Shown here: positions 3,104 through 21,061 of the stretch, piece by piece
How positions within the stretch are numbered: position 1 is the first letter of the stretch
How the letters are laid out: each line of letters opens with the position of its first letter
From: a virus
Virus record (IMG/VR): IMGVR_UViG_3300005663_000183
Coordinates: 1 to 26,147 of that record
Reading direction: 5' to 3' (one strand)
DNA length: 26,147 nucleotides
Notes under the pieces: generated by a model
Told to the model about the DNA's origin: nothing
The model's input: only the letters and a program-made list of their open reading frames with translations
The model's database searches: none
Made by a program: the position numbers and the translations under genes

Positions 3104-3748
3104 ATGGGAGAGGCGAGTAAACGACCCGGGGTAAACTTAGCTCCAAGCGCAATGGTAGACAGCGTGGCCGACTGGCCGCTCCGTCAGGTCGTGGAACTCC
3201 TCAAGAGGAAAGAGAAGGAAGATACGGGCGATAGCCAGCCGAGCCGTCTCCACTGCCGGTCTACAGTCAAGTCGCTGGTGGACGTTATCGACTCTGTAGC
3301 GTCCGACTACGGTGAGTCCCGCAACCGGATGTGTCGATGGCTGTCCTATCATGCTATTGCTATCGCTCGTGAGGATCCTATTATCTCAAAGTTAGAGCGG
3401 GCTCAGTCTACTATACGAGAAGCCTGTCTGCCGGAAGACGACACAGATACCTTGGATGTAATGAACAGTTTAGTACCCTACGCCCCGCGGGTTATGGACG
3501 ACAACCCGGTGCATCTCCTGTTCTACGATGCTTGGGTGCTTTCCGACTTTGAGGAAATGGCGAGGGTCTGCGGGGTCTACAAGTACCGCATCGCACAAGT
3601 TTACCTTATCAAATCTATCGTTTCCGGGGACATCGAGAAGTTCGGGGAAACGGCATCCCGGCTGTTACAGGAGCTGACAAGATGGGATACTTGGATGAGT
3701 TTTCGGTTGGGCGCTTTGGAAATATTAGTGGAGAGAAAAAGTGGGTGA
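3104..3748 (+). CDS. hypothetical protein, 214 aa
   Basis: No family is recognised. The protein is soluble, mostly helical by composition and has no membrane segment. A GAGGAG lies 9 nt upstream of ATG 3104, only a few bases after the TSCPD stop. It is the last gene of the first rightward block, and its final codons run into the direct repeat that begins the noncoding stretch at 3746. A helical segment near residues 160-200 (YKYRIAQVYLIKSIV) could mediate protein contacts. Confidence 0.6.
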   Translation: MGEASKRPGVNLAPSAMVDSVADWPLRQVVELLKRKEKEDTGDSQPSRLHCRSTVKSLVDVIDSVASDYGESRNRMCRWLSYHAIAIAREDPIISKLERAQSTIREACLPEDDTDTLDVMNSLVPYAPRVMDDNPVHLLFYDAWVLSDFEEMARVCGVYKYRIAQVYLIKSIVSGDIEKFGETASRLLQELTRWDTWMSFRLGALEILVERKSG

Positions 3749-6743: not shown

Positions 6744-7217
6744 ATGGACTGGAACGAGTATTTTTTCGGTATTGCCGAGGCAGTGTCTCAGAAGTCGCAC
6801 TGTCTTTCACACAAGTTTGGGGCAATAGCTGTCCGAGACGGTCGGTTCGTGGTAGCTACGGGCTATAACGGGCCACCTGCAGGTTACCCACACTGTCCAG
6901 GTAGTGTTTGCCCCCGGCGGGTGGCTGGCTATAAGAGTGGTGAGGGTTTAGACATCTGCCCAGCGTCGCACGCTGAGAGGAATGTGCTTATCGAGGCCGC
7001 TCGTCTGGGTATCTCACTCTTAGGATGTAGGCTCTATACCACATCCCCATATCCTTGCCGGGAGTGTGCTAAGGAGATAGTTAATGCTGGGATACGCGAG
7101 GTATTGGTGATGATTGGTTATGAGTACCCTGATATCGGTTTGACGGGAGCTCAAGTACTGAATCGGTGTGGTGTGTCCGTAGTTGTTGTCGAGGGTAGCG
7201 AGAGGGATTCATCGTGA
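6744..7217 (+). CDS. dCMP/cytidine deaminase-family protein (ComEB-like)
   Basis: The protein has 157 aa, the usual size for phage dCMP deaminases. The zinc site is complete: HAE at residues 76-78 supplies the zinc ligand and the catalytic glutamate, and PCREC at 104-108 supplies two cysteine ligands. Extra Cys/His residues at 50, 51 and 56 match the second zinc site seen in some family members. The expected reaction is dCMP to dUMP plus ammonia, feeding thymidylate synthesis; the thymidylate-synthase-family gene is at 11969. The ribosome binding site (AGAGG, about 8 nt upstream) is modest. The stop overlaps the GTG start of the methyltransferase gene (GTGA). Confidence 0.88.
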   Translation: MDWNEYFFGIAEAVSQKSHCLSHKFGAIAVRDGRFVVATGYNGPPAGYPHCPGSVCPRRVAGYKSGEGLDICPASHAERNVLIEAARLGISLLGCRLYTTSPYPCRECAKEIVNAGIREVLVMIGYEYPDIGLTGAQVLNRCGVSVVVVEGSERDSS

Positions 7218-9763
7218 CAGCGATATTTCTACAAGGTGATGCCAGAGTGGTGCTTCAGGGGCTTCCCGCTGATTTATTCCATTGTGTTGTGACTTCCCCA
7301 CCCTATTTCGGGCTTCGGAAGTACGAGGGTGGGGAGGAAGTCTGGGATGGTGCCGCGGAGTGCGGACATGAGTGGGGCGAGGAAATGATTCGGCGTGACC
7401 GTGGGAGTGCCAAAGGTGCATCAGCAGTAGTTGGCAACCAACTCCGAGAGGTTAGTGGTGTCGAAACTAGGCAGGGTAATTTTTGTATCAAGTGCGGATC
7501 TTGGAGGGGTCAGCTTGGTAGCGAATCTGATCCCGGCCTGTATATCCAGCACTTGGTAGAGATTTGCCAAGAGGTTAAGCGAGTATTGCGTCCTGACGGG
7601 GTATTCTGGCTGTCTATTGGCGATTCGTGGGCGGGTTACTGGGGAGATAAGTATGCTCACAGGCCGTTTGGGAAGGATCGTAGTCCGGGACCCGGCACTC
7701 CTCCCAATAAGCGGAGTCTTGATTTCAGGAACGGTGGCGTTAAGCCTCTCGATATGATTCTTATCCCCTCTATGCTCGCTTTGGCTGCTCGTGATGATGG
7801 CTGGTATGTCCGGTCAATGGTGGTGTGGTGTTTGTCTGGAGGGACATACCTCTACACGCGGGCGCAAAAGGGTGATATGCCTATGATGATTCAGGATATG
7901 GTACGGCTAGACCCGAAAACGGTAAAATTGTGGAATGGGGAGAAATGGACGCAAGTGCTGGGTTGGTCAAAAGCAAACAGGGTTAGTGATGAGCTAGAGC
8001 TGGTACTGCGTAGCGGTGAGCGAATCAGCTGTAGTCCTAACCATAGGTTTCCGACTGAGCACGGGTTGCTGTCCGCTTCCAATATTAGCGTTGGCGATTG
8101 TCTGCTGTCTACTACTATTCCCGAACCTGTGTCGGTCAAGGATAGTTCACATATCGGACTAGATGCTGCTTGGTTAGCTGGATTGTATCTCGCGGAGGGT
8201 TCTAAGGCCGATGATACTATCCAAATAGCGGGTAATGTGTCTGATGAGGGACGTTGGGAAAGGATACAGTGTATTGTGGCGAGTTATGGCGGGGTTGCTA
8301 CTAGAACTATCAAGGGCAATAAGATGGATATCCGCATCTACGGCAAAGTTCTAAATGCCATTATCGCTGAGCTTGTGTCTGGTCACAATGCTAAGACTAA
8401 ATGTTTGGCTACTGTGTGTTGGCGGTACAGTAATGTGTTCCTGCGAGAATTACTGGATGGATACCTAAGTGGGGATGGTGGATGGGACGAGAAGAACCAA
8501 AGATGGAGATTGGGATTTGCGCGTAATTACAACTTAGAGCGGGATTTAAGGGTACTAGCATCGAGGTTAAGTTTTCATTTGGTTCTGAATTTATCCTATT
8601 CTAAGTGCCAGACTGGTACTTTCCCTTCCCATAAGGGGGAGATAAGATTCAGCAGAAATGGTCATCCTAACGAGAAGAATCCTTGTGAGGTTGTTGCTAT
8701 CCAGAAGTCCAGATGCCGAGAGGTGTATGATATCGGGGTTGAAGATGAGCCACATATTTATGCTCTTGCGTCTGGCGTGCTTACTCACAACTCTAAGAGC
8801 AACCCGATGCCCGAATCGGTGAATGGCTGGAGGTGGGAACATCATAAGGTGAAAGTTGAGAGTGCCCGTTCTTCTACTCAGCCTTCTTCTACCGTGATCG
8901 GTGATGGTCGCAGAGATAACTTTGGTGGGTTATCCAATACACTGGCTACTGTCTGGCAAGACTGCCTAGGTTGCTCTAAGTGCCGGTCCAACGACGGCTA
9001 CGTCCTCCGCAAAGGCTCGTGGCGACCTACCGATGCCCACGAGTATATCCTGATGCTTACCAAGACGAATCATTATTTCTGTGACCGGGAGGCGGTCTTG
9101 GAGCAGGGAGTGTATCCAGCTGGTGAGGCCCGGCAGGGAGGTGACGGTCACAAATCTTTGGGCGCGGGGAGCCGGACCACCGAGGGGCTGCATAATAAGG
9201 ACTGGATTGGCAACGGTGGTCGCAATCTCCGTTCCGTTTGGTCATTCCCAACCAAGCCGGGGAAGTTCAACCACTATGCCGCTTATCCCCCTCGGCTTGC
9301 CGAAATCTGTATCAAGTCTTCCACGTCCGAGAAAGGGTGTTGTCCGAAGTGTGGTGCGCCTTGGGCTAGAGTTATCGAGAAGGGTCTGACGGCGCATGAC
9401 GGAGATACTGGTAGTGGCTACGTTGAAGGCAGTACAGCGAACCGTCTTGCGTTGTTACGTCAGGCGGCACGGGAGTGGGGTGCGGAGTATGTCAACTCTG
9501 CCCAGTCTGTTAGCTGGCGACCGACTTGCACTTGCTCTGCCGGTGATCCCGTTTCCTGCCGGGTTCTCGACCCTTTCTCTGGTGCCGGCACTACCGCTCT
9601 TGTCGCCGAGCAGCTTGGGCTGGACTCAGTGTCCGTCGACACTAGCGCAGAATACATCCAACTCTCCAAAGACCGCCTTGCCGCCGACGAGCAGAAGCGA
9701 ATAGACGAGTTTATCAAGACGGCCAAGAGAAGTGCCAGGAAAAGCAGCGCAAATAACGTCTAG
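7214..9763 (+). CDS. site-specific DNA methyltransferase (N4-cytosine/N6-adenine type) containing an intein
   Basis: The precursor has 849 aa; the spliced enzyme would have about 528. The N-terminal part carries the catalytic TSPPY motif (residues 27-31), and the C-terminal part carries the SAM-binding DPFSGAGTT motif (786-794). This order places it in the beta-type amino-methyltransferases. The N-terminal extein has Cys91/Cys94, and the C-terminal extein has CCPKCGAP and other Cys pairs, likely zinc sites. An intein occupies residues 206-526, between VVW and SKSNPMPESV, inside a conserved block of the family. The start is GTG 7214, overlapping the deaminase stop. The target sequence and whether C or A is methylated cannot be read from this. 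A likely role is protection from host restriction. Confidence 0.88.
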   Translation: MTAIFLQGDARVVLQGLPADLFHCVVTSPPYFGLRKYEGGEEVWDGAAECGHEWGEEMIRRDRGSAKGASAVVGNQLREVSGVETRQGNFCIKCGSWRGQLGSESDPGLYIQHLVEICQEVKRVLRPDGVFWLSIGDSWAGYWGDKYAHRPFGKDRSPGPGTPPNKRSLDFRNGGVKPLDMILIPSMLALAARDDGWYVRSMVVWCLSGGTYLYTRAQKGDMPMMIQDMVRLDPKTVKLWNGEKWTQVLGWSKANRVSDELELVLRSGERISCSPNHRFPTEHGLLSASNISVGDCLLSTTIPEPVSVKDSSHIGLDAAWLAGLYLAEGSKADDTIQIAGNVSDEGRWERIQCIVASYGGVATRTIKGNKMDIRIYGKVLNAIIAELVSGHNAKTKCLATVCWRYSNVFLRELLDGYLSGDGGWDEKNQRWRLGFARNYNLERDLRVLASRLSFHLVLNLSYSKCQTGTFPSHKGEIRFSRNGHPNEKNPCEVVAIQKSRCREVYDIGVEDEPHIYALASGVLTHNSKSNPMPESVNGWRWEHHKVKVESARSSTQPSSTVIGDGRRDNFGGLSNTLATVWQDCLGCSKCRSNDGYVLRKGSWRPTDAHEYILMLTKTNHYFCDREAVLEQGVYPAGEARQGGDGHKSLGAGSRTTEGLHNKDWIGNGGRNLRSVWSFPTKPGKFNHYAAYPPRLAEICIKSSTSEKGCCPKCGAPWARVIEKGLTAHDGDTGSGYVEGSTANRLALLRQAAREWGAEYVNSAQSVSWRPTCTCSAGDPVSCRVLDPFSGAGTTALVAEQLGLDSVSVDTSAEYIQLSKDRLAADEQKRIDEFIKTAKRSARKSSANNV
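7829..8791 (+). mobile_element. intein with LAGLIDADG homing endonuclease
   Basis: This 321-residue in-frame insertion starts at Cys206 of the precursor (CLSGGTY) and ends with VLTHN (522-526) before Ser527, the classic class of splice junctions Cys...His-Asn/Ser. Block B is SCSPNHRF (272-279). Two LAGLIDADG-like helices are visible: WLAGLYLAEG at 320-329 and LLDGYLSGDG at 413-422, each with an acidic residue near the end. Block F is VYDIGVEDEPHIYAL. All splicing residues are present, so self-splicing and homing both look intact. The segment appears richer in A/T than the flanking extein, which fits lateral acquisition. Confidence 0.9.
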
Positions 9764-9869: not shown

Positions 9870-10010
9870 GTGTACCATGTAGCTCTTGACCTTAGTCAGG
9901 AGCAGGTCAAGGATCTGAAGGTGCTGGCAGCGGCCAGCGGCATCTCAGTCTACAAGCTGGTAACCAGTCTGGTCGTAAAAGAAATCAGTAAGGAGGTATC
10001 TACAAAATAA
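9870..10010 (+). CDS. small ribbon-helix-helix-like DNA-binding protein
   Basis: This 46-aa protein starts with GTG at 9870, 7 nt after AAAGGAGG. It has a short beta-like strand (YHVALDLS, residues 2-9), a first helix to about residue 23, a turn at SGIS and a second helix to residue 40. This is the layout of MetJ/Arc-type ribbon-helix-helix proteins, which bind operators as dimers. Its stop and the next start overlap (TAATG), so it is coupled to the gene at 10010. As the first gene after the promoter at 9768, it may autoregulate. The family call rests on pattern only. Confidence 0.6.
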   Translation: MYHVALDLSQEQVKDLKVLAAASGISVYKLVTSLVVKEISKEVSTK

Positions 10011-10789
10011 TGACACCAGGAATATCACTTAAACCTAGTAGCTTTGTGGAAGGGGGAATAGTCCCCGTCGATCGGAACGTAACCTGGAAAGAGGCCCGGT
10101 TCAACCTTTTCGACTACGTGAAAAAGAGTGGTGAGAAGGTGGCGTCGACTGTGGCTCTGCGCGTCACGTTCGTTGAGGATGACGGCACGGAGAGCGAGCA
10201 GCAGTACTCGGTCGGGGACCCGGAGCGCTTCCAGCCCAGTGAGGACGGTAAGGAACTCGTCGCTGTCGGCGATGCTGTGGCCTTGAGCAAATCATCCAAC
10301 TATTACCTGCTGATGAATGCTCTGGTCAATGCCGGTTTCCCTGAGAACCGTCTTGGCGAGGACACCTCGGTTCTCGACGGCCTCTACACCTACAACATCG
10401 GTCTCCCGGAACCCAAGAGGTCGGGTCTGGCTCGACCCGCCGTTGCCGATGGCGAAACAGTCAGAGAGCGTGTCCTGAGCGTCCCCTCCCAGATACTCAA
10501 ACTTCCGTGGGATAAGAAGGGCGGTGCCAAGACATCCGCTAAGGCGAAGGCTAGTGAGACCGAGGCCACCGATGACGAGGTGATCGCTCGGGCGCTGAAA
10601 TTCGTGGCTGACGCATTGGGCGAGGATGAATCGATTATCCGCAAGGATCTGGCGGTGAAGGTGTTCAAGGATCTGGCCAAGGATCCGATGAAGGATGCCG
10701 TTGCCGGCCTCATCTTCAAGGATGAGTTTCAGGTGCAGCTACTCGCCGCAGGTTATACCTTGGACGGCGAGACGATCAGCAAGAGCTAG
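10010..10789 (+). CDS. hypothetical protein, candidate phage single-stranded DNA-binding or recombination accessory protein
   Basis: This 259-aa soluble protein has no family I can name. Residues about 20-150 look beta-rich, with a mid-region of charged turns. A low-complexity Lys/Ala/Ser/Glu linker at about 170-190 follows, then a C-terminal helical domain (191-259) ending in a strand-turn segment. A beta domain followed by a flexible linker and a small C-terminal helical domain is common in phage DNA-binding accessory proteins. The operon also contains the RHH-like protein, and a Sak4-like ATPase lies at 13010. Codon choice is more C/G-ending than in nearby genes, suggesting good expression. 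The function is an inference. Confidence 0.5.
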   Translation: MTPGISLKPSSFVEGGIVPVDRNVTWKEARFNLFDYVKKSGEKVASTVALRVTFVEDDGTESEQQYSVGDPERFQPSEDGKELVAVGDAVALSKSSNYYLLMNALVNAGFPENRLGEDTSVLDGLYTYNIGLPEPKRSGLARPAVADGETVRERVLSVPSQILKLPWDKKGGAKTSAKAKASETEATDDEVIARALKFVADALGEDESIIRKDLAVKVFKDLAKDPMKDAVAGLIFKDEFQVQLLAAGYTLDGETISKS

Positions 10790-10794
10790 CATCC

Positions 10795-11468
10795 TGACCG
10801 GGAAGGTAATCACACAATAGAATAATTCTCTGGTAGGGGCTCATAGACTTCGAGAGCTATGGGTCCCAGCGAGAGAGTCATTTGGGGTAAGGAGACAACT
10901 GAATAGGGATAGCTTGCTAGTGTACATTGAAAGCTATCGGTAGTTGCCTAGGCAAGTGTGAAGTCTAACCGAGCTAGCAAGCACTCGCTGGATAGGTATT
11001 CGCCTTAGTGTCGACCCACTTTGCCGAAGCCATGGTATCCGGGAAGCGGACAGGAGTACCCATGGTGTCCAGCGAGAGGTCAGCCACCCATTCTCCGAGG
11101 GTGAGCCGAGCGATATCGGAGCGGTAGAGAGGCTCAACAGGCTGACCAATGGGGGAGTGCGTTCCGTGGCCAGGATACTGAACTCATGGCGTTCACCCCC
11201 GCCTCCGTGACGGAAGGTAGGAGGCATTAGATCTGGAGCCGGGCGGGATGATGGTAATCTGCAAGCCACAGGTTGCAGTCGTAAAGCCTGAGAACCCGAG
11301 AGACAGGACACCACACCTGCCTGGCTCCTTCAAACAGAATAGTGGAGGCTACGACTGGGGCGATACGGCGTGAGGGCGCGAAATTGGTAACTGAGCCGCC
11401 TGTTAAGCGAAGGAGGCAGATGCTTTTGATAGGGAAGCCCTCCGGGGTAGCGCTACCCCGCCCGGTCA
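10795..11468 (+). ncRNA. large structured noncoding RNA candidate, about 674 nt
   Basis: This gap in a packed genome holds no convincing gene; the minus-strand frames at 10934-11314 and 11227-11469 are low-complexity and lack ribosome binding sites. It is closed end to end by TGACCGGG (10795-10802) with CCCGGTCA (11461-11468). Internal helices include 10836-10846/10857-10867 (11 bp), 10912-10920/10974-10982 (9 bp) enclosing 10937-10943/10965-10972, 10984-10994/11066-11076 (11 bp), 11078-11085/11140-11147 (8 bp), 11201-11206/11220-11225, 11235-11247/11316-11328 (13 bp), 11259-11264/11273-11278 and an 18-nt palindrome at 11443-11460. Five G.U pairs in these helices would be mismatches on the other strand, so the RNA is read rightward. 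The size and phage setting recall GOLLD and ROOL RNAs, but I cannot assign a class. Confidence 0.72.
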
Positions 11469-11490
11469 TCCAAGTAAAGGAGGGACTGTT

Positions 11491-11682
11491 ATGTCGAATA
11501 TGCCGTGCGAGTGCATAAGGTTACTGGCTGCAAGTGGGTATGTTCAGCCCAATCTCTTAGTACCCGGCCAGTACTTCCTTTATCCAATAGTGCTGAATCC
11601 TCGAACGCAGAGGCAGACTGTGGGTAAGAAACCGGTTCGAGCTGAGTACTGCCCACAGTGCGGCGTGGTGTTAGGAGAGTAA
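11491..11682 (+). CDS. small cysteine-containing protein
   Basis: The protein has 63 aa. Cys6 and Cys8 (CEC) near the start and CPQCG at 54-58 near the end can form one zinc site, bringing the termini together. AAAGGAGGG lies upstream of ATG 11491, just after the closing helix of the structured RNA, so RNA folding could affect its translation. Function is unknown. Confidence 0.62.
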   Translation: MSNMPCECIRLLAASGYVQPNLLVPGQYFLYPIVLNPRTQRQTVGKKPVRAEYCPQCGVVLGE

Positions 11683-11685
11683 GAG

Positions 11686-11994
11686 GTGAGCGAGTCCTTT
11701 AGTTTTGCCGAGCATTCTGTTGGACACCAGTCTCCTGAGCAGACGCTCCTGATATTGACCTACGAGCTTGGCAAGCTCATCGAGTACAATCACAAAGCTC
11801 GTATTTACGGCGAGACAGCCTATTACTCAGACGCTAATCAGCAGAAGGAAATGTCTGACCTGATATCGATGGCTCGATATTATTGTGAGATGAAGGGTTG
11901 GGATTTCTCGGCCTTGACGCAGTATGGCGAAGAATGTTATTTAGAGCGAATGGAGGATATACGGAAACATGGACTTAGTTCAGGTAGAAGCTAG
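11686..11994 (+). CDS. MazG-like protein with degenerate metal site
   Basis: The protein has 102 aa. Its all-helical pattern resembles MazG-type nucleoside triphosphate pyrophosphohydrolases, which hydrolyse non-canonical or excess NTPs. The first signature, normally EExxE, is reduced to YELGKLIE around Glu27, while the second, EMSD at 55-58, keeps the ExxD spacing. The loss of acidic residues may mean low or altered activity. The start is GTG 11686, with GGAGA 7 nt upstream, directly after the preceding stop. It overlaps the thymidylate-synthase-family gene by 26 nt, a fitting neighbour in nucleotide metabolism. The fold call is moderate. Confidence 0.45.
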   Translation: MSESFSFAEHSVGHQSPEQTLLILTYELGKLIEYNHKARIYGETAYYSDANQQKEMSDLISMARYYCEMKGWDFSALTQYGEECYLERMEDIRKHGLSSGRS

Positions 11995-12631
11995 AGACTT
12001 GCCCGAGGCGTGGTATCTCTGTATCCGTGAGTGTATGGACAGAGGTCATATTTATACTATTGACAGAGGGAGTCACCAAGGGCGGCAGCGCAAGGAAATC
12101 GAGAGCATTACTCTCTTGGTGAAGTTCCCGGGATCCCGACCTATCGTGCCAGTCGTCGCACCGGGAGTACCACCGCCTTCTACTCAAGAATACGTTGAGC
12201 AGTACCTTCCCTACTTGCTGACTGGCCACAAGCAGGTTGGTGAGCAGTATACCTACGGTGAGGATATAGAGCACCAGCTCCCCGAGCTTATCCGGATGTA
12301 CCGTGAAGACGGCTTTGGCACGAACCAGGCATGCCTTGCTGTGGGCAACAAAGAGTCTATTTTCTTGCCGGATCCGCAGTGTCTTCGAGTGATAGATACA
12401 CGGGTTCGCAATAACAAGCTGGATTTCTACGTTTACTTCCGCTCTTGGGATTTATGGGCAGGACTTCCGTCGAACTTAGCGGCTATCCAGATTCTCAAGG
12501 AGTACATAGCCAGTGAAATTGGAGCAGAGGATGGTGAGCTGGTCGCCTACAGCAAAGGTCTCCACCTTTATGATCACCATTGGGATGTAGCAAATATAGC
12601 GTTGCATAGGAATACCTTGAGGGAGGGGTAG
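11969..12631 (+). CDS. thymidylate-synthase-family protein
   Basis: This 220-aa protein matches the ThyA/dCMP-hydroxymethylase family, closest in outline to the short archaeal forms. The catalytic cysteine is Cys138 in DPQCLR. The signature RSWD (158-161) and GLPSNLA (165-171) keep the arginine, aspartate and Asn169. That asparagine corresponds to the residue that selects dUMP rather than dCMP in ThyA. HLYDHHW (199-205) matches the nucleotide-binding HxY segment. Expected products are dTMP, or 5-hydroxymethyl-dUMP if it is the phage hydroxymethylase variant; I cannot decide. The ribosome binding site (GGAGG at 11952-11956) is distant (12 nt). It works after dCMP deaminase. Confidence 0.83.
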   Translation: MDLVQVEARDLPEAWYLCIRECMDRGHIYTIDRGSHQGRQRKEIESITLLVKFPGSRPIVPVVAPGVPPPSTQEYVEQYLPYLLTGHKQVGEQYTYGEDIEHQLPELIRMYREDGFGTNQACLAVGNKESIFLPDPQCLRVIDTRVRNNKLDFYVYFRSWDLWAGLPSNLAAIQILKEYIASEIGAEDGELVAYSKGLHLYDHHWDVANIALHRNTLREG

Positions 12632-18039: not shown

Positions 18040-18341
18040 TGAGTTTTACTGATCAGAAGCCGAGAATTGCGACGGAAGAGGATGTAAAAGCTCCTTGGTC
18101 TGGGATTAAAGATGGCAAGCGATTCTACTGCCGTCTATGTGGACACCAATTTGAAGTAGGCGACGTTTGGCGTTGGGTGTATGCTGGCGCGATACACCAT
18201 GTTAATTTGATAGTCTGTGAACAATGCGATAGCGAGGATGCCCTAGTACATTGGGAGCAATGGTGGCAAGAGTGGGAAACACTTGCACAAGGTAAGTTCA
18301 GATATATAGCAGACTGCTTTGCTGACACGGAAAGGGAATGA
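18039..18341 (+). CDS. zinc-finger protein upstream of the polymerase
   Basis: The protein has 100 aa. Cys31/Cys34 (CRLCG) and Cys60/Cys63 (CEQC) form a four-cysteine zinc site with a Trp-rich segment between them; a HH pair at 53-54 lies near the second knuckle. The second half is Trp/Glu-rich and helical. GGAGG lies about 11 nt upstream. It overlaps the polymerase start by 4 nt. A DNA-related role beside the polymerase is plausible but unproven. Confidence 0.62.
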   Translation: MSFTDQKPRIATEEDVKAPWSGIKDGKRFYCRLCGHQFEVGDVWRWVYAGAIHHVNLIVCEQCDSEDALVHWEQWWQEWETLAQGKFRYIADCFADTERE

Positions 18342-21061
18342 GTTACCGCTATTCTCGTAGACAGGCACCTCCACTACCTCCAGCCGAGTCTTTACCTTTC
18401 CCGGGCAACCTTATCCGGCAATGCTCGGACTGTGATCTCCGAGGGGGTTGCATAGCCCCTGTTCCCGGTGACGGTCCGGTACCCGCTGAGGTAATGCTAG
18501 TCGGGGAGGCACCGGGGGGGAATGAGGATGAGTGGGGTCGACCTTTTATCGGGCAGGCAGGGCAGTATCTCGACTCTCTACTGTTCCAAGTAGGAATACC
18601 TCGTGACGCCGTCTATATTACCAACGTAATCAAATGCCGTCCTCCGAACAACCGTGACCCAAAGCCCGCAGAGATTAAAGCCTGTGCTAAGTGGCTGAAT
18701 ATCGAGCTAGGGATCGTCCAGCCCCGTATCATAGTCGCCATGGGTGCTCCGGCGATAGCTCGTTTCTTGGGGCAGGGTGCCGGGACAGTAGAGCATCTCC
18801 GAGGTAAGCCCATTGAACTGGACGGGCGTGTCATTCTCCCCTGCTACCACCCGGCGGCGGCTCTCCGTAACACCGCCCTGCTCCGTATGTGTTCCGACGA
18901 TTTCCAAGTACTGCGCGGGTTGGTCAAGGGGGTCAACCCTTCTGAATACTTGGTCAAGGACGAGTACCCTGATCCAGAATACAAGGTCGCCGATACTCCC
19001 CAGAAGCGGACACAGATGGTCAATGAACTACTGGACGTGGGAGAGTTCGCTATTGACGTCGAGACAATCAAGAAGAACACAGAACTCTGGAGTGCGCAAA
19101 TCAGTAGCTACCCCGGTACTGCTTGGTTCGTCCCAATGAAGCCCGGATACACAGGTCGAATGGATCTGACGCAATGGGACTCTCTGGCGATTGTCCACTT
19201 CTATCTGAACGATATCAACTGGCTCAACATCACTGATAACCGATTCCTTGACTCAATGTGTCAGGCCTACCTTCTCGGTCTTCCGCAAGGTCTGAAAGAG
19301 CTAGCATCCCGTCTATGCGGCATCGATATGGTCTCCTACTCGGAGATAGTGCGACCTGGGCAACGCAAACTGTCGCTTGAATACCTTACCGAGGCAAGCA
19401 AGCGGGAGTGGGCGGACCCACCGGAGATCGAGGTAACCAAGTGGGATAACAAGGCCGGCAGAATTGTCACCCGCAACAAGAATCCGTGGCATATCTCCCG
19501 CAAGGTAGCTCGTATTCTCGCCGATACTATGGACAGTATTGACGTGGATCCTTATCAGCGCTGGCGGAAAATCCCCGAACAGGAGCGGGCAGAGATAGAG
19601 AAGAGGCTAGGGGCTATGCCTGAGTCCTCTCTTGCGGATATCCAGTTCGAGGATGCTGTACAGTATGCTTGTTTGGACGCATCCGCCACCCTCCGGGTCA
19701 AGCGCAAAATGGATGTGCTAATTTCGCAGCTTGGCGTGGACTTCGCACTTTTTACTGACATCAGGATACTCCCGATGGTTCAGGAGATGATGCAGACCGG
19801 AATGGCGGTTGACCTCGACCACTTCCGTAACTTGTCGGCGGACTACGATGCCCGGATGAGAGCCAAGGCTACTGAGCTGGCGAGTGTGGTTGGTCACTCG
19901 TTCAATCCGAGCAGCTCCCAGCAGGTAGCTCAGGTTGTCTATGGTGAGCTAGGCTTCAAGCCGACTAAGTTTACACCAACCAAGGAAATCAGCACCGACG
20001 ACCAGGAACTGAAAAAGACGAAGCACCCGGTGGCGAAAGGCATCATCGAGTACCGGCGTCTGTCTAAGATGAAAGGGACGTATGCGGATAACTTGGTGCG
20101 GTCTAGTTACCCCGATGCAGATGGCACACCAAGAATACACACCGTGTTGACGACTACCCGTACGGAAACGGGGCGCTTGAGTTCCAAGAAGGACGATGAT
20201 GGTGGAGGGGCTGCTCTCCAGAATATTCCTGTCCGTAGTAAAGAGGGCAGAAGAATCAAGGAGGGTTTTGTTGCACCTTACGGGAAATCGTTACTAGAGG
20301 CAGACTATGGGCAAATAGAGCTGGTTGTTCAAGCCCATGTAGCCAGATGTAAAGAGCTTATAGCTTTGTTCCTTCGAGGGGATGACCCTCATACCACGAC
20401 CGCTTCTAGGATTTTTGGTGTTTCCTACGAGGATGCTAAACAGAGCAAGTATCGTTACCCTGGAAAAACCATGAACTTTGGGGTCATCTATCTCATTTCT
20501 GGCCAAGGGCTATCCAGCCAAATTGGAGAGTATATTTCGGACCTAGAGATGGAGGGTACCCAAGTAGACATCGAGCCTTGGGATGCTCTTACTTGTGATA
20601 AGTATATTGCCGAGTGGTATAAGCTGTACCCGGAGGTTAAGGACTATCAGATGGAGCAGGTGGCAATGGTAAGACGCCACGGATACGTGCAGGATATCTT
20701 CGGGAGAATCAGGTATATTCCTGAAGTGACCTGCCCAATTATGCGTATCCAGGAGTCGGGCAGAAGAATGGCTTGCAACATGCCGATCCAGGCCGGGGCT
20801 CAGGGCATCATAAAAATGGCTATGGGGGAGTTGTGGAGAGGGTTGCCGAAGACCGAGTGGAGAGACCTAGTTAGATGGCTTCTCCAGATACACGACAGCC
20901 TCTTAGTGGAAGTAGACGAGGATGAGGAGGTTTGGAAACCCTATCTGGCTTGGATGAGGAAGATTATGACGGGTGTTGTGAGTCTGGTAGTTCCGGTGAA
21001 GGTTGATTTTAAGGTGGGGAAGTCGTGGAGTACCTTAGAGAAAGTTAGTTTGGAGGTTTAG
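18338..21061 (+). CDS. fusion of family 4 uracil-DNA glycosylase and family A DNA polymerase
   Basis: The protein has 907 aa. Residues about 20-200 are a family 4 UDG: Cys29, Cys32, Cys100 and Cys116 are the expected Fe-S ligands, with GEAPG at 56-60 and HPAAAL at 171-176. Residues about 225-470 form a 3'-5' exonuclease with AIDVET (Asp240, Glu242) and YACLDA (Asp447). The polymerase part has TETGRLSS (609-616), motif A DYGQIE (656-661), motif B with Lys710 to Tyr718 and motif C IHDSL (His852, Asp853). All catalytic acids are present. Motif A lacks the arginine usual after IEL, and motif C has Ser instead of Glu. It is the likely replicative polymerase, able to excise uracil or a related base near synthesis. 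The start overlaps the zinc-finger gene. Confidence 0.93.
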   Translation: MSYRYSRRQAPPLPPAESLPFPGNLIRQCSDCDLRGGCIAPVPGDGPVPAEVMLVGEAPGGNEDEWGRPFIGQAGQYLDSLLFQVGIPRDAVYITNVIKCRPPNNRDPKPAEIKACAKWLNIELGIVQPRIIVAMGAPAIARFLGQGAGTVEHLRGKPIELDGRVILPCYHPAAALRNTALLRMCSDDFQVLRGLVKGVNPSEYLVKDEYPDPEYKVADTPQKRTQMVNELLDVGEFAIDVETIKKNTELWSAQISSYPGTAWFVPMKPGYTGRMDLTQWDSLAIVHFYLNDINWLNITDNRFLDSMCQAYLLGLPQGLKELASRLCGIDMVSYSEIVRPGQRKLSLEYLTEASKREWADPPEIEVTKWDNKAGRIVTRNKNPWHISRKVARILADTMDSIDVDPYQRWRKIPEQERAEIEKRLGAMPESSLADIQFEDAVQYACLDASATLRVKRKMDVLISQLGVDFALFTDIRILPMVQEMMQTGMAVDLDHFRNLSADYDARMRAKATELASVVGHSFNPSSSQQVAQVVYGELGFKPTKFTPTKEISTDDQELKKTKHPVAKGIIEYRRLSKMKGTYADNLVRSSYPDADGTPRIHTVLTTTRTETGRLSSKKDDDGGGAALQNIPVRSKEGRRIKEGFVAPYGKSLLEADYGQIELVVQAHVARCKELIALFLRGDDPHTTTASRIFGVSYEDAKQSKYRYPGKTMNFGVIYLISGQGLSSQIGEYISDLEMEGTQVDIEPWDALTCDKYIAEWYKLYPEVKDYQMEQVAMVRRHGYVQDIFGRIRYIPEVTCPIMRIQESGRRMACNMPIQAGAQGIIKMAMGELWRGLPKTEWRDLVRWLLQIHDSLLVEVDEDEEVWKPYLAWMRKIMTGVVSLVVPVKVDFKVGKSWSTLEKVSLEV

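Follow-up and report, generated by a model that had tools for sequence, protein, structure and literature searches.

A candidate family of large modular RNAs beside recombination genes of uncultivated tailed phages

Large ornate RNAs are rare; to our knowledge only a handful of classes have been described, and the function of the phage RNAs GOLLD and ROOL is open. Both occur in phages and prophages, GOLLD forming a 14-mer and ROOL an octameric nanocage, and adjoining or embedded tRNA genes are common, if not universal, in the two classes. Phage-encoded GOLLD RNAs reach up to 800 nt or more and consist of many hairpin domains with a variable 5′ part; the variable region may hold a tRNA, and for GOLLD as well as ROOL a scaffold or binding role has been considered (PMC12286853). 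Among smaller catalytic RNAs, type II hammerheads are known from bacteria, and the intergenic regions of phages are known to harbour hammerheads as well (PMC3088659). Here we describe the follow-up of a first-pass annotation that had proposed, from the letters alone, an undescribed large structured RNA in a phage-like viral sequence of 26,147 nt (the window).

Fold signal and domain chain of the window RNA

The element as marked in the first-pass annotation spans positions 10795–11468 of the plus strand. This 674-nt gap follows directly on a plus-strand ORF for a 259 aa protein (10010–10789), which is conserved in close relatives, and is succeeded by an ORF of 63 aa (11491–11682, plus strand), which is preceded by AAAGGAGG and for which no homologue was found. 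The flanking genes are thus co-directional, and a ribosome-binding site lies directly behind the RNA. Neither a terminator nor a clear promoter was found around the RNA, and the 26-kb window contains no tRNA. The claim that the gap is free of credible genes held: there is no plus-strand gene, two antisense ORFs (10934–11314 and 11227–11469) have no homologue among the fetched relatives, and no conserved reading frame crosses the gap. All coordinates given earlier proved correct.

Folding of the plus strand yielded a minimum free energy of –270.8 compared with –241.3 ± 7.6 for 100 dinucleotide shuffles, none of which was as good (z = –3.9), while four coding controls of 674 nt each gave z values of 0.6, 0.1, 1.2 and –1.25. 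The gap also contains ten perfect Watson–Crick helices of 8 bp or longer, whereas 60 shuffles averaged 2.6 and none exceeded 9. The perfect helices are partly mutually exclusive, so that the earlier list may mix incompatible pairings. Together with the homologues in phage-like genomes described below, the fold signal supports the reading of the gap as a large folded RNA. The minus strand reached a z value of –2.5; the proposed preference for the plus strand is real but moderate. That the minus strand, too, beats its shuffles could point to an element acting as DNA, i.e., inverted repeats serving as a replication origin, recombination or packaging site, and the repeats do adjoin replication and recombination genes. 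We nevertheless regard such an element as very improbable: of the two strands it is the plus strand that has the better fold, the orientation of the element matches that of the neighbouring genes at the loci examined, and its G–U pairs, the hammerhead cores and the GNRA-type loop of relatives and a tRNA inside one domain make sense only as RNA.

The window RNA can be read as a chain of plus-strand hairpin domains. A 5′ hairpin domain, H0 (10820–10882; local fold –32.0 kcal/mol; z = –3.76 for the stretch 10795–10897), is followed by the conserved leader ACAACUGAAUA (10895–10905), an exact 11-mer shared with relatives that stands six bases ahead of domain H1 (10912–10982). H1 has the stem GCUUGCUAG/CUAGCAAGC and an internal loop of UGU opposite GAAGUCUAACCGA, and its UCGGU (10937–10941) is complementary to ACCGA (10968–10972). 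One spacer base separates H1 from H2 (10984–11076; CUCGCUGGA/UCCAGCGAG), a helix of 11 bp with p = 0.003 for finding one so good beside H1. Domain H3 (11078–11147; GGUCAGCC/GGCUGACC, 8 bp, p = 0.05) in turn abuts H2. Local folding alone predicts a further hairpin H4 (11151–11200; GGGGG..CCCCC) and a hairpin domain H5 (11237–11326; AGCCGGGCGG..CCUGCCUGGCU, –37.1 kcal/mol); all domains past 11147 are such folding predictions, except for the 3′ hairpin, which is common to relative L032. We also observed that CCAGCGAGAG or a near-copy occurs twice, at 10866–10875 and 11069–11078, once in the 3′ arm of H0 and once in that of H2. The 5′ arm of H2 could pair with either copy, which makes a switch or a duplicated module possible.

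At the 3′ end, the annotated 18-nt palindrome is indeed present (CGGGGTAGCGCTACCCCG, 11443–11460, plus strand). Its hairpin has a 22-nt match (91%) to positions 3597–3618 of L032, where the counterpart carries a GCAA (GNRA) loop. The helix said to close the element end to end fared less well. Its plus-strand arms, TGACCGGG (10795–10802) and CCCGGTCA (11461–11468), do form a perfect 8 bp, but a rival 9-bp pairing (11239–11247 with 11457–11465) competes with both this helix and the palindrome, and the closure has no comparative support.

A leader and abutting hairpin domains in relatives

The leader followed by the abutting hairpin domains H1–H2–H3 recurs in about 20 uncultivated viral contigs. 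Each domain starts a few bases past the previous one, and some members are without some parts. The exact 11-mer ACAACTGAATA occurs seven times in 226 kb from 14 relatives, window included, where 0.09 occurrences are expected, and all seven copies lie in the gap after the upstream gene (window, L004, L031, L035, L036 and L007). In general terms the leader reads (A)CAACUGAAUA and stands shortly ahead of H1, as it does in the window at 10895–10905. The H1 stem is near-fixed across members, many of which share an internal loop of UGU versus GAAGUUAACCGA and a UCGGU able to pair with ACCGA. Since the relatives were mostly gathered by exact sequence patterns, this conservation of H1 is inflated. The patterns, applied to viral contigs, comprised the leader plus the GCUUGCUGG stem and, additionally, the 3′ side of that stem; they supplied the later members L066, L095, L106, L186, L188, L193–L200, L202–L204, L207 and L208.

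A covariance model of H1 (R1) was built from 15 members with the window left out. R1 matched the window at 10898–10989 with 30.5 bits (E = 1.6e-7) and, in the window's own record, gave this single match (E = 9.4e-9). It also picked a second element in L008 that had been chosen by no pattern. By its sequence, the window RNA is therefore a member of the family defined by the leader and H1–H2–H3, and this collection of homologues goes beyond the evidence of the first-pass annotation. Independent homologues also bear on the notion that the structure arose by chance or from composition in an untranslated gap. GC-rich sequence folds well, and parts of the gap lie only moderately below their shuffles (z = –1.9 for H1–H3 and –1.75 for the 3′ part). 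Composition cannot, however, yield independent homologues that share a leader and domains, which refutes a chance origin of leader and H1. For the element as a whole we consider the probability of this explanation negligible, while chance structure is possible for parts of 11148–11442.

The other domains were traced as well. H2 adjoins H1 in most relatives with low shuffle p values, and H3 was found in L188, L193, L195, L196, L197 and others; this abutment test ran to L199 and left out L200, L202–L204, L207 and L208. The arms of H2 differ in sequence in some relatives yet stay paired, in sequences that were chosen for pairing; as the arms of H2 and H3 were picked as the best helix, pairing counts are partly circular. 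H1 varies so little in sequence that its covariation is weak: a single pair, the window's own A–U, was changed on both sides, a result reached by 41 of 500 shuffles. Alignment of the full window RNA with that of L004 by MAFFT was not feasible, so that anchors were used; read by hand, the L004 chain comprises H1 (6858–7123), H2 (7128–7399) and a hammerhead (7401–7502). Across the relatives the element measures from about 100 to 800 nt. H1-like modules occur in tandem in L197 (three, 1780–2090) and L207 (two, 11800–12000 in reverse-complement coordinates). A hairpin GAUUGCUGGUGG..AGCCAGCAAUC on the minus strand of L004 (11812–11874), antisense inside an ORF, also matches the H1 model (E = 7.6e-5).

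Searches beyond these contigs were negative: blastn of the window RNA and the RNAs of four relatives against 50,697 phage records gave no match, a profile search of genome contigs with a three-sequence alignment of the upstream protein retrieved no relative, and the single match of the genome-contig pattern scan (L192) was unrelated. Among the matches listed in the first viral-contig pattern scan, most were chance and L066, L095 and L106 were real. The element is absent from the pattern matches among L052–L187 other than L066, L095, L106 and L186, and likewise from L201, L205 and L206, all of which look like chance matches.

Two other readings of the leader were considered. A role as a start-codon region was rejected, for no conserved frame follows. 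In L066, L195 and L207 the leader reads UUUAACAA / CUUUAACAACUGAAUA or nearly so (CUAAAUA in L195), resembling boxA, the antitermination signal of rRNA operons. A boxA-like antitermination signal is only an idea, and the leader of the window is without a boxA-like sequence.

Hammerhead cores, tRNAs and flanking genes

A perfect type II hammerhead core is present at the RNA locus of five independent relatives (L004, L008, L031, L036 and L095). All five contain GAAA, a U–H cleavage site, CUGAUGA and three stems; the descriptor used found nothing in 6 Mb of shuffled sequence and, across 2 Mb of fetched sequence, only these cores. All five adopt a three-way junction in minimum-energy folds, as does L007, where stem II is weakened. 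Stems I and III vary with compensation, which is supportive rather than independent evidence as the sequences were found by pairing. Against the Rfam model RF02276, the L008 hammerhead scored 14.1 bits (gathering score 37), and the other hammerhead relatives gave no match at gathering either. We take these hammerheads, on the strength of their cores, for candidate self-cutting ribozymes. In L004 and L031 the hammerhead closes the chain and immediately precedes the next gene; it stands between a leader and H1 in L036 and lies upstream of the leader in L095. Copies that appear decayed, as judged by eye, were seen in L035, L188, L195 and L203, and L035 and L007 retain little besides the leader and a degenerate or weakened hammerhead. 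The window itself showed no hammerhead in a descriptor scan of 10700–11560 on both strands with one core mismatch allowed.

Some relatives combine the element with tRNA sequences. L066 carries a tRNA inside H1 (36 bits, above threshold; not called by ARAGORN), and behind the H1 of L008 lies a tRNA-like fold (21.5 bits versus tRNA-Sec, below threshold). A tRNA within or next to the RNA, seen here in two relatives, has been described for GOLLD (PMC12286853); this arrangement, the same size range and the phage location would fit a highly diverged GOLLD or ROOL that the covariance models missed. Comparison with Rfam speaks against it. At gathering, the window matched none of 4227 families, and down to E ≤ 10 it matched only an unrelated miRNA model (E = 0.32); GOLLD, ROOL, HEARO, OLE, raiA and the group I and II introns, all named for checking by the first-pass annotation, were unmatched. 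Neither GOLLD nor ROOL was found at gathering in the 24 relatives, whose single Rfam match at this level was the embedded tRNA of L066. Moreover, the linked genes belong to recombination and not to tRNA islands. A diverged GOLLD or ROOL is thus, in our estimation, extremely doubtful.

Homologues of the gene upstream of the window RNA were identified in L004, L005, L007, L008, L031, L032, L035 and L036; a protein scan with this gene alone gave none, and a three-sequence alignment retrieved them. The protein model comprises an N-terminal β-barrel and a C-terminal winged helix (mean pLDDT 61.6). The latter, a common fold, resembles the winged helices of Rpa2, Stn1 and MCM (Z 6.6–7.8), and Foldseek and VIA-align searches returned no decisive relative. 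We regard the product as a putative ssDNA-binding protein. In other members the gene before the RNA encodes RecT (L207, weakly L106) or Erf (L202), or belongs to another family (L188, L193–L195, L203 and L208); a relation between the upstream families of the window group and of the L203/L195 type was not detectable. A gene for an exonuclease or a Sak4-like ATPase follows the RNA in L095, L195 and the window. The recombination neighbourhood is found with most copies of the RNA but is not clear in L066, L186, L198, L200 and L204. As unrelated annealing or recombination genes are found beside the RNA, the RNA has kept its neighbourhood while the flanking families differ.

Several further features of these loci were noted. 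A small conserved ORF (MDFKVTAKRYGDSVKF... or similar) lies between the upstream gene and the RNA in L031, L032, L035, L036 and L005 and is absent in the window. The window also encodes a DNA methylase (7214–9763) with an intein-like insertion between the methylase parts (Pfam Intein_splicing, E = 7e-5, below cut-off), a uracil-DNA glycosylase fused to a family A DNA polymerase (18338–21061) and a protein (11969–12631) whose C-terminal part matches only positions 145–226 of thymidylate synthase (PF00303). Other sequence of about 0.8–1 kb or more interrupts the polymerase genes of L030, L035 and L036, which suggests introns or inteins.

The arrangement of genes is the basis of the main rival to a free-standing RNA. 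The hairpins and hammerhead could act in cis as an intergenic element that keeps the mRNA of the upstream putative ssDNA-binding gene apart from that of the next gene, protects both and sets their relative expression. The co-directional genes, the ribosome-binding site right behind the RNA and the lack of a terminator or clear promoter around it would suit such a spacer, as would the highly variable size and domain number, including the much reduced L035 and L007. Indeed, a single functional RNA would not usually differ in length as much as these elements do (about 100 to 800 nt), which counts against a free-standing one. On the other hand, the 11-nt leader, the H1 stem with its internal loop and the chain of domains are conserved despite unrelated flanking genes, the multiplied modules of L197 and L207 exceed what mRNA spacing needs, and the L066 copy, which bears a tRNA and a terminator-like end, has other neighbouring genes. 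Overall, we judge a cis-acting spacer to be an unlikely explanation, though one with real weight.

Proposed working and comparison with known classes

We consider it reasonably probable that uncultivated tailed phages encode, in these elements, a new family of large modular RNAs, in which the transcript of a recombination operon is trimmed to a scaffold-like RNA. The fold signal, the family, the gene neighbourhood and the hammerhead cores of the relatives were obtained by computation; from them we infer how the RNA may be transcribed, processed and used. It would be made as an untranslated stretch of a replication or recombination operon, after a gene for ssDNA binding or annealing, and its hairpin domains would fold directly one after another (H0, leader, H1, H2, H3 and more). 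Cleavage would then free the RNA from the transcript, in several relatives probably by the type II hammerhead that opens or closes the series and in the window by some route other than a hammerhead. We envisage the freed RNA as a stable platform that may scaffold or bind partners, conceivably proteins encoded in the recombination module. A more specific proposal remains speculative and is rather unlikely to be right in full: a new ribozyme-processed class of phage RNAs that act as scaffold, regulator or decoy together with the ssDNA-annealing and recombination proteins of the phage, and that keep their place while the flanking recombination genes are swapped for unrelated ones.

As far as Rfam and the open-access literature show, the family was previously undescribed, and it adds a large ornate RNA family known so far from uncultivated phages only. 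Public RNA libraries miss such families, the only Rfam match of any member at gathering being one embedded tRNA. The function of the new family is made testable by the recurring neighbourhood, with its annealing and recombination genes of unrelated families, by a ribozyme of several members that would mark the RNA ends and by the GOLLD-like versions that carry a tRNA.

Compared with the type II hammerhead (RF02276), the five relatives share the complete core, but here it is joined to a chain of large domains, some copies have long stem III inserts and the window has none. With GOLLD the family has in common the phage location, the size range, the many hairpin domains and, in L066, a tRNA inside H1; it differs in lying beside ssDNA annealing genes instead of tRNA islands, in the hammerheads of the relatives and in the window's lack of a tRNA. 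The likeness to ROOL consists in a comparable length, the phage context and an ornate secondary structure (PMC12286853), whereas the new family has no Rfam match, no tRNA island and another gene neighbourhood. By the tests made, the family belongs to neither GOLLD nor ROOL; in its working, it would be most like these two if the scaffold reading is right.
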